This document shows positions 9,818 through 11,864 of a stretch of DNA of 41,247 nucleotides, one piece after another. Below the pieces are notes generated by a model that did not search any database, was not told the DNA's origin, and was given only the letters and a program-made list of their open reading frames with translations. The stretch comes from Ectothiorhodospiraceae bacterium. Its GTDB lineage: Bacteria > Pseudomonadota > Gammaproteobacteria > Nitrococcales > Aquisalimonadaceae. The position numbers were made by a program, and so were the translations under genes. The stretch is taken from contig PXAT01000036.1 in the NCBI GenBank assembly GCA_003565775.1, forward strand, positions 1-41,247. Direction: 5' to 3'. Numbering within the stretch: position 1 is the stretch's first letter; each line of letters starts with the position of its first letter.

Positions 9818-10681
9818 TCACGCCATGGCAGCGCGCAGTTTGCCCATGGCGTTCTTTTCCAGCTGCCGGATACGCTCGGCCGACACCTGATACTGGTCTG
9901 CCAGATCCTGCAGCGTGGTCTTGTCGTCCAGCAGCCAGCGGCGCTGGACGATATCCCGGCTGCGCTCGTCCAGCCCGCTGAGAGCCTGACGCAGCGAGGT
10001 CGACTGATGCGCGTCCCAGTCCGACTCCTCGACCAGAGCCGCCGGATCTGGCGACCCGTCCTGCAGGAAGGCCGCCGGCGAGCGCGCCACGGCGTCATCG
10101 TCGTCGGTCTCCGGCTGTGGATCGAAGGCCACGTCATGGCCACTCAGGCGGGACTCCATTTCCACCACGGTTTCCGGCTTGACGCCGAGATCGTGGGCCA
10201 CGCGGCGAACTTCCTCGGCAGACAACCAGCCGAGACGCTTCTTCGAACTGCGCAGATTGAAGAACAACTTGCGCTGGGCCTTGGTGGTGGCGACCTTGAC
10301 GATGCGCCAGTTGCGCAGGATGTACTCGTGCATTTCGGCACGGATCCAGTGCACGGCGAAAGACACCAGCCGCACCTTGACGTCAGGATCGAAGCGCTTG
10401 ACCGCCTTCATCAGGCCGATGTTGCCCTCCTGAATCAGGTCGGCGAGCGGCAGTCCATAGCCGTTGTAGCCCCGCGCGATATGCACGACGAAGCGCAGAT
10501 GCGCCAGCACCAGTTGGCGCGCCGCATCCAGGTCATCCTGCTGACGATAGGCAAGAGCCAGCTCCTGCTCGTCCTCGACGCTCAGTACCGGAATCTGATT
10601 CACGGCCTGGATATAGGCCTCTTCACTGCCCGAACGCAGGGGCAGCTGCTGGTAATTGATTGTCGCCAATGCCGTCGACAT
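9818..10681 (-). CDS. rpoH: RNA polymerase heat-shock sigma factor sigma-32
   Basis: RpoH directs RNA polymerase to heat-shock promoters. The 287-aa protein has the family length and order: region 2 ([19 protein letters not shown], then [19 protein letters not shown]), the RpoH-specific box QRKLFFNLR, and a region 4 helix-turn-helix ([20 protein letters not shown]). It follows ftsX on the same strand in the classic ftsY-ftsE-ftsX-rpoH order. It has its own 193-bp upstream region with a CIRCE-like operator 38 nt before the ATG (10719-10745), so HrcA repression is likely. That is a different logic from E. coli, where rpoH is controlled chiefly by mRNA structure and protein stability. Confidence 0.97.
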
Positions 10682-10718
10682 GGGTATTTGTCCCCCGATA
10701 AAAATGTATGGCTCAAGT

Positions 10719-10745
10719 TTAGCAGTCTCTTCCTTGGAGTGCTAA
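10719..10745. promoter_or_regulatory. CIRCE operator (HrcA binding site) upstream of rpoH
   Basis: TTAGCAGTC (10719-10727), a 9-nt spacer, then GAGTGCTAA (10737-10745). The CIRCE consensus is TTAGCACTC-N9-GAGTGCTAA, so this has the exact spacing and 17 of 18 matching bases. It lies 38 nt upstream of the rpoH start, in the intergenic space after ftsX. In other bacteria HrcA bound to CIRCE represses groESL and dnaK operons. hrcA itself is not in the window. Confidence 0.85.
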
Positions 10746-10762
10746 GAGGGGGAAGGGTTCAG

Positions 10763-10874: not shown

Positions 10875-11864
10875 TCACTTCGGCTCGATGGCGGCCAGAT
10901 GGCGGCCGACGGCGAGCCAGGAGCCGGCGAGGCCGAGGGCGATGCCGGCCAGCCCCAGCAGCAGAAAGCCCTGGAGGCCAGGGCCGACGAGGATCGGGCC
11001 GGTCTGGTACAGCCGCGCCAGCTCTGCCGCCGGTGCCGCCAGCGCGAGCCTGACGCCAGCCACGAGCACCGCCGCGGTCAGGCCGCCGAGGGCCCCGTAC
11101 CAGAGTCCTTCGTACAGGAAGGGCCGGCGAATGAAGCCATCGGTGGCACCGATCAGCTTGGCGATGACGATCTCCTCGCGCCGGTTCTGGATCGCCAGCC
11201 GGATCGTGTTACCGACCACCAGCACCACGGTCAGCCCCAGCAATCCGGCAATCAGCCAGACTGCCCGCCGCAGGAGCTCGCTGATGCGCTGCAGACGCTC
11301 GACCCAGGCCAGATCGAGACGCACGGTATCGACCTCGTCCAGCGCAGTCAGCTCATCACCCATCGCGCGCAATGCATCGGCATCCAGCGCCGATTCCGGC
11401 TGCAGCACGATCACTGCCGGCAACGGATTGTCGTCCAGCAGATCCAGCGCATCGTCCATGCCGGCGAGGTTGCGGAATTCGGCCAGCGCCTGATCCGGCG
11501 TGATCAACTCGGTCGACTGCACGTCGGCCCGGCCGCCAAGCTCGTCGGCCAGTGGCTGCAGACGCGCCTCGTCCAGATTCAGCTCGAGAAACACCGACAG
11601 CGAGGCGCCGCGGTCCCAGTCGGCACCGAGGCGTTCGACGTTCTGCAGCAACAGCAGAAACAGCGCGGGCAAGGCCAGCGAGATCGCGAGCACCCCGACC
11701 GTCATCAGGGCGGACAGCGGCGTCCTTGCCAGGCGCCCGAGCGAGCCCACCAGAGCCCGCCCATGCGCCACGAACCAGGCACCCAGGGCGACCTGCAGAC
11801 GTCGCAGCGGCGCGCCACCCGAGCGGCTCGCCGCCCCGCCGCCCTTGCGCCGTCCGCCATTCAT
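10875..11864 (-). CDS. ftsX: Cell division protein FtsX
   Basis: FtsX is the membrane half of the FtsEX complex, which activates septal peptidoglycan hydrolases. The 329-aa protein has a basic cytoplasmic N-terminus, TM1 (LMTVGVLAISLALPALFLLLL), a periplasmic loop of about 120 residues rich in acidic residues, and three further helices (AVWLIAGLLGLTVVLVVGN, GALGGLTAAVLVAGVRLALA, LQGFLLLGLAGIALGLAGSW). Between TM2 and TM3 lies the conserved IRLAIQNRREEIVIAKLIGATDGFIRRPFL stretch (split: IRLAIQNRREEIVI, AKLIGATDGFIRRPFL). The start overlaps the ftsE stop by 4 nt. Confidence 0.96.
   Translation of the reverse strand: MNGGRRKGGGAASRSGGAPLRRLQVALGAWFVAHGRALVGSLGRLARTPLSALMTVGVLAISLALPALFLLLLQNVERLGADWDRGASLSVFLELNLDEARLQPLADELGGRADVQSTELITPDQALAEFRNLAGMDDALDLLDDNPLPAVIVLQPESALDADALRAMGDELTALDEVDTVRLDLAWVERLQRISELLRRAVWLIAGLLGLTVVLVVGNTIRLAIQNRREEIVIAKLIGATDGFIRRPFLYEGLWYGALGGLTAAVLVAGVRLALAAPAAELARLYQTGPILVGPGLQGFLLLGLAGIALGLAGSWLAVGRHLAAIEPK

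Follow-up and report, generated by a model that had tools for sequence, protein, structure and literature searches.

The control of sigma-32 is known mainly from Escherichia coli, which is without HrcA. In E. coli K-12, rpoH is preceded, 121 nt before its start codon, by TGAACTT-N16-TCTGATAAAAC, which we take to be the core of promoter P3, and the 240 nt upstream of the gene contain no CIRCE, the best match having eight mismatches. The P3 promoter of E. coli rpoH is transcribed by RpoE (PMC8103513). In Geobacter sulfurreducens, a perfect CIRCE was reported at -51 of rpoH and HrcA control of this gene was predicted (Rodionov et al. 2004, PMC545781, Table 8). The locus analyzed here belongs to a window of 41,247 nucleotides (positions 1 to 41,247 of contig PXAT01000036.1 of an Ectothiorhodospiraceae bacterium). 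As in G. sulfurreducens, a CIRCE precedes rpoH and hrcA is present in the genome; however, G. sulfurreducens belongs to a different phylum, represents a single species and provides a prediction only, in which promoter overlap was not described (PMC545781). The arrangement also resembles E. coli P3, in which a GAACTT-N16-TC core precedes rpoH within the ftsX-rpoH interval, but E. coli P3 is devoid of CIRCE. It also resembles the control of groESL and hrcA-grpE-dnaK-dnaJ, with the same 27-bp operator and the same repressor family, relatives of this bacterium having both groESL and hrcA sites.

In the window, rpoH (9818..10681, minus strand; NCBIfam equivalog TIGR02392, 407.9 bits versus a cut-off of 323.1) has ftsX as its upstream neighbour (10875..11864, minus strand; TIGR00439, 338.7 bits versus a cut-off of 255), a gene order identical to that of E. 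coli. Read on the rpoH strand, the 3′ end of the interval between them is ...CTGAACCCTTCCCCCTCTTAGCACTCCAAGGAAGAGACTGCTAAACTTGAGCCATACATTTTTATCGGGGGACAAATACCCATG. This interval carries a CIRCE operator, TTAGCACTC-N9-GACTGCTAA (10719..10745, minus strand), separated from the ATG of rpoH by 37 nt; the complete site is TTAGCACTC-CAAGGAAGA-GACTGCTAA on the rpoH strand and TTAGCAGTC-TCTTCCTTG-GAGTGCTAA on the plus strand. The earlier note had reported a match to the CIRCE inverted repeat (TTAGCACTC-N9-GAGTGCTAA) at 17 of the 18 arm bases with an exact N9 spacing, which was confirmed by pattern scan and shuffles. The single mismatch, GACTGC for GAGTGC, lies in the gene-proximal arm (10722-10727). 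With up to three mismatches allowed, this site is the only CIRCE of the window (0 in 100 shuffles) and one of only two in the whole 3.2 Mb assembly (reversed control pattern: 0). The other, with two mismatches, is located 82 bp upstream of hrcA (C185:66750-67766, 325 bits versus a cut-off of 197), which is followed on the same strand by a grpE-like gene identified by reading its translation. The hrcA gene, whose presence the earlier note had proposed to verify, was found; of the classical targets that it had also proposed to scan for CIRCE, hrcA-grpE has this two-mismatch site, and groES is absent from this incomplete assembly. A perfect CIRCE precedes groES in the congener G001. The genome also contains rpoE.

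The comparison of 86 rpoH CIRCEs, collected by searches that left their flanks unconstrained, with a control set of 48 groES and hrcA CIRCEs revealed that the rpoH operator overlaps promoter-like elements. The first is a sigma-70-type candidate. Its -35 (TTAGCA, 10740..10745, minus strand) is formed by the left CIRCE arm; this register reads TTAGCA in 58 and TTGGCA in 23 of the 86 sites, which is weak evidence on its own since this arm is fixed by CIRCE anyway. Its -10 (TAAACT, 10716..10721, minus strand), separated by an 18-nt spacer, overlaps the right arm and extends 3 nt past it. Across the alignment, -10-like hexamers (TAAAAT, TAATAT or TAAACT) emerge from the right arm, as in TGC-TAAAAT, and CIRCE position 30 is a T in 85/86 rpoH sites versus 2/48 groES/hrcA CIRCEs. 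The second is a sigma-E-type candidate, with a -35 TGAACCC (10755..10761, minus strand; consensus GGAACTT) and a -10 TCCAA (10734..10738, minus strand) that corresponds to CIRCE positions 8-12, the 16-nt spacer being the same as in E. coli rpoH P3. GAAC is found at the -35 register in 59/86 rpoH sites versus 1/48 other CIRCEs; this motif, in most cases extended to GAACTT, precedes the TC at CIRCE positions 8-9 by 16 nt in 51 sites and by 17 nt in eight. An A occupies position 12 in 63/86 rpoH sites (73%). The sigma-E promoter motifs are GGAACTT and TCAAA (PMC4890791), and the GAAC spacing together with the A at position 12 is the geometry that would be expected of a sigma-E promoter. The TC of this -10, like the sigma-70-type -35, is fixed by CIRCE itself and is therefore not independent evidence. 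We rejected the idea that promoter overlap is a trait of all CIRCEs, as groES and hrcA CIRCEs are devoid of the flanking -10 T and of the GAAC register. Unlike the rpoH sites, groES CIRCEs follow a TATNA -10-like element (29/29) and thus coincide with the start site or follow it instead of covering -35 and -10 elements, so that HrcA would meet a different promoter layout there. Overall, the operator probably overlies sigma-70- and sigma-E-type rpoH promoter candidates that share 46 bp. The earlier note was right about the CIRCE before rpoH but missed its overlap with two conserved promoter-like elements.

We infer HrcA binding, the identities of both promoters and their occlusion from sequence features. 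HrcA probably uses this site as a working operator that lies over the core promoters of rpoH, so that bound HrcA would shut both. In unstressed cells, GroESL would keep an HrcA dimer active; this dimer would cover CIRCE, including the -10 of both promoters, and would block RNA polymerase at the sigma-70 (TTAGCA-N18-TAAACT) and sigma-E (TGAACCC-N16-TCCAA) promoters. The operator would be freed when misfolded protein occupies GroEL or when HrcA is inactivated by heat; rpoH mRNA would then rise and sigma-32 would induce its regulon. The envelope-stress input through sigma-E would act only when HrcA is off. In other bacteria, HrcA activity depends on GroESL, hence the expected derepression of rpoH when misfolded protein occupies GroEL; this GroEL feedback is proposed by analogy, from what is generally known of HrcA. 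It is possible, although somewhat unlikely, that HrcA represses rpoH but that the sigma-70 promoter alone is relevant here, GAAC being a weakened remnant or an element of another ECF sigma factor. Consistent with this, the window -35 is TGAACCC and not GGAACTT (its spacing and GAAC core fit, but its outer bases match weakly), and 27 of the 86 rpoH sites, many of them of Burkholderiales type, have a sigma-70-type -10 but no GAAC at the register. However, GAAC is retained at a 16- or 17-nt spacing in the 13 members of the family that were read (13/13), and rpoE is present, both of which count against this reading.

In the GTDB family that includes this genome, a CIRCE is found at the same place before rpoH in 14/14 genomes, and the distance from operator start to the QEG motif is 308-315 nt in the 13 genomes that were read. 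Several of these genomes have no CIRCE at hrcA, so that retention of the rpoH site is stricter there than that of hrcA autoregulation. Four genomes of genus g2 (G004, G007, G010 and G012) have CIRCEs at groESL and rpoH only; as none was found at hrcA within three mismatches, HrcA is apparently not autoregulated in them. In families f4 and f5 of the same order, the site is absent from the rpoH loci that were read, and CIRCE is retained at groESL and often at hrcA; the families of this order devoid of the rpoH site retain hrcA, which weighs against the proposed control. In the sister family f2, one genome (G014:C8:47854-47898; L273 1455-1499) carries the GAAC + CIRCE + TAA..T module before clpB, recognised by reading its translation, and not before rpoH.

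The GACTGC gene-proximal arm is found in 12/86 rpoH sites versus 0/48 others (p 0.004, relatedness not corrected) and may tune the affinity of HrcA at rpoH. This C/G change recurs at rpoH operators (L027, L237 and others) and, within the family of this genome, is always gene-proximal. A few genomes have the C/G change in both arms (GCAGTC-N9-GACTGC), and the rpoH site of Xanthomonas pisi is a further degenerated form of CIRCE (L013). In another genome (G063:C61:202264-202622, L233), rpoH is preceded by two tandem CIRCE-like palindromes, and a GCAGTC arm is present in the upstream palindrome. A GCAGTC distal arm was rejected as a common alternative operator: with only 5/369 genomes, it is at most a lineage curiosity. 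The arm mismatch of the window, shared by most g1 and g2 genomes, could also indicate a weak or decaying operator of little effect, sigma-32 levels depending chiefly on translation and turnover, as they do in E. coli, where control is largely exerted after transcription. This is improbable, since the altered arm is itself conserved (3/4 in g1 and 5/5 in g2) and recurs in other lineages, and a retention in 14/14 genomes is not what decay would produce. It is still less probable that the main role of CIRCE is that of an RNA stem-loop affecting mRNA stability in the rpoH leader rather than that of a DNA operator. Some HrcA-controlled mRNAs of other bacteria do carry CIRCE in their leader, but here the -10 overlaps the right arm, which places the predicted sigma-70 start downstream of the palindrome, and the predicted sigma-E transcript would hold only its right part.

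The presence of CIRCE upstream of rpoH extends far beyond this family. It was detected in 43 of 80 named rpoH loci, including those of Dyella, Rhodanobacter, Methylocaldum, Pseudoalteromonas luteoviolacea, Nitrosomonas, Polynucleobacter and Pandoraea; among these 80 loci, none from Enterobacterales, Vibrio, Shewanella, Haemophilus or Aeromonas has one. The absence of such a site in enteric bacteria, put forward in the earlier note, is thus borne out, as enteric and Vibrio loci lack it. An anchored pattern, in which CIRCE had to stand at a fixed distance from QEGNIGLM, a conserved motif of RpoH, was found in 153 of 369 class-wide genomes (control: 0). A second, gene-free composite pattern (GAAC-N11/12-TTRGCACTC-N9-GASTGCTARNNT) was found in 133 genomes, with a single occurrence in each (control: 0). 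A first sample of the composite loci all lie before rpoH (30/30), and among 36 further ones missed by the anchored pattern, 35 lie before rpoH and one before clpB (G014), G222 being present in both lists. The union of the two patterns gives about 193/369 gammaproteobacterial genomes with an rpoH CIRCE, anchored matches outside the sampled loci being accepted on pattern alone. About 200 genomes from other classes of the same phylum gave no match, although their RpoH may carry the anchor motif at another distance. Taken together, the comparison of related rpoH upstream regions showed the site to be kept both in the family (14/14) and in the class (about 193/369). The view that the site is peculiar to this genome is rejected (14/14 in the family, 43/80 named loci and 153/369 genomes by the anchored pattern); the arrangement is widespread and had already been predicted once, in G. 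sulfurreducens (PMC545781).

The distribution of the site follows that of the repressor. The hrcA gene was detected in 270/369 genomes, and only 10 of the 153 genomes with an anchored rpoH CIRCE have no detected hrcA, nine of these ten being less than 90% complete. With one genome per family and a completeness of at least 90%, an rpoH CIRCE is present in 75/108 hrcA-positive versus 1/34 hrcA-negative genomes (Fisher p 8e-13, to be taken as indicative because families are not fully independent); G014 was removed from this comparison since its module sits at clpB. Such a dependence is what would be expected of an operator useless without its repressor. One 97% complete genome (G187; L309, G187:C10:91500-94500) has a CIRCE before rpoH and no detected hrcA, which also weighs against the proposed control; its site, in which the -10 T is missing (TAAGAA), may therefore be a relic. 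That the palindrome arose by chance, an origin ruled out by the shuffles and reversed-pattern controls (all zero), or that it serves another repressor can be dismissed as extremely improbable, as no point in favour was found and site presence follows hrcA. The HrcA control of rpoH proposed in the earlier note is thus supported by the presence of hrcA, the conservation of the site and its tracking of hrcA across families, and the heat-shock repressor system probably gates the sigma-32 system in this bacterium and in about half of the class genomes sampled.

The same sigma-E core is kept at many CIRCE-less rpoH loci, enteric and other. These sequences are most simply explained by a sigma-E promoter common to both kinds of loci, the CIRCE-less lineages having lost the HrcA operator along with hrcA. 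We tentatively propose, as a plausible extension, that rpoH was ancestrally controlled by the 46-bp HrcA/sigma-70/sigma-E node in Gammaproteobacteria (the former betaproteobacteria included), with HrcA and GroEL gating both the housekeeping and the envelope-stress input. The E. coli P3 promoter devoid of HrcA control would then be what remained after the loss of hrcA.

A literature search that covered few subscription journals found no description of a CIRCE overlapping sigma-E and sigma-70 promoters of rpoH. Permina and Gelfand (2003) may list CIRCE-rpoH cases from beta- or gamma-proteobacteria. The CIRCE-rpoH link is not new in kind, having been predicted before in G. sulfurreducens (PMC545781); the superposition of promoters and operator at rpoH and its breadth appear to be new. 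We thus describe a widespread variant of this known link, with sharp definition at the sequence level. If the core promoters of rpoH are indeed repressed by HrcA in roughly half of the class, a repressor system would stand above a sigma-factor system in many Gram-negative bacteria. The load of GroEL would be read at the level of rpoH transcription and the wiring of E. coli would be the exception, which would also provide a simple evolutionary account of its P3 promoter.
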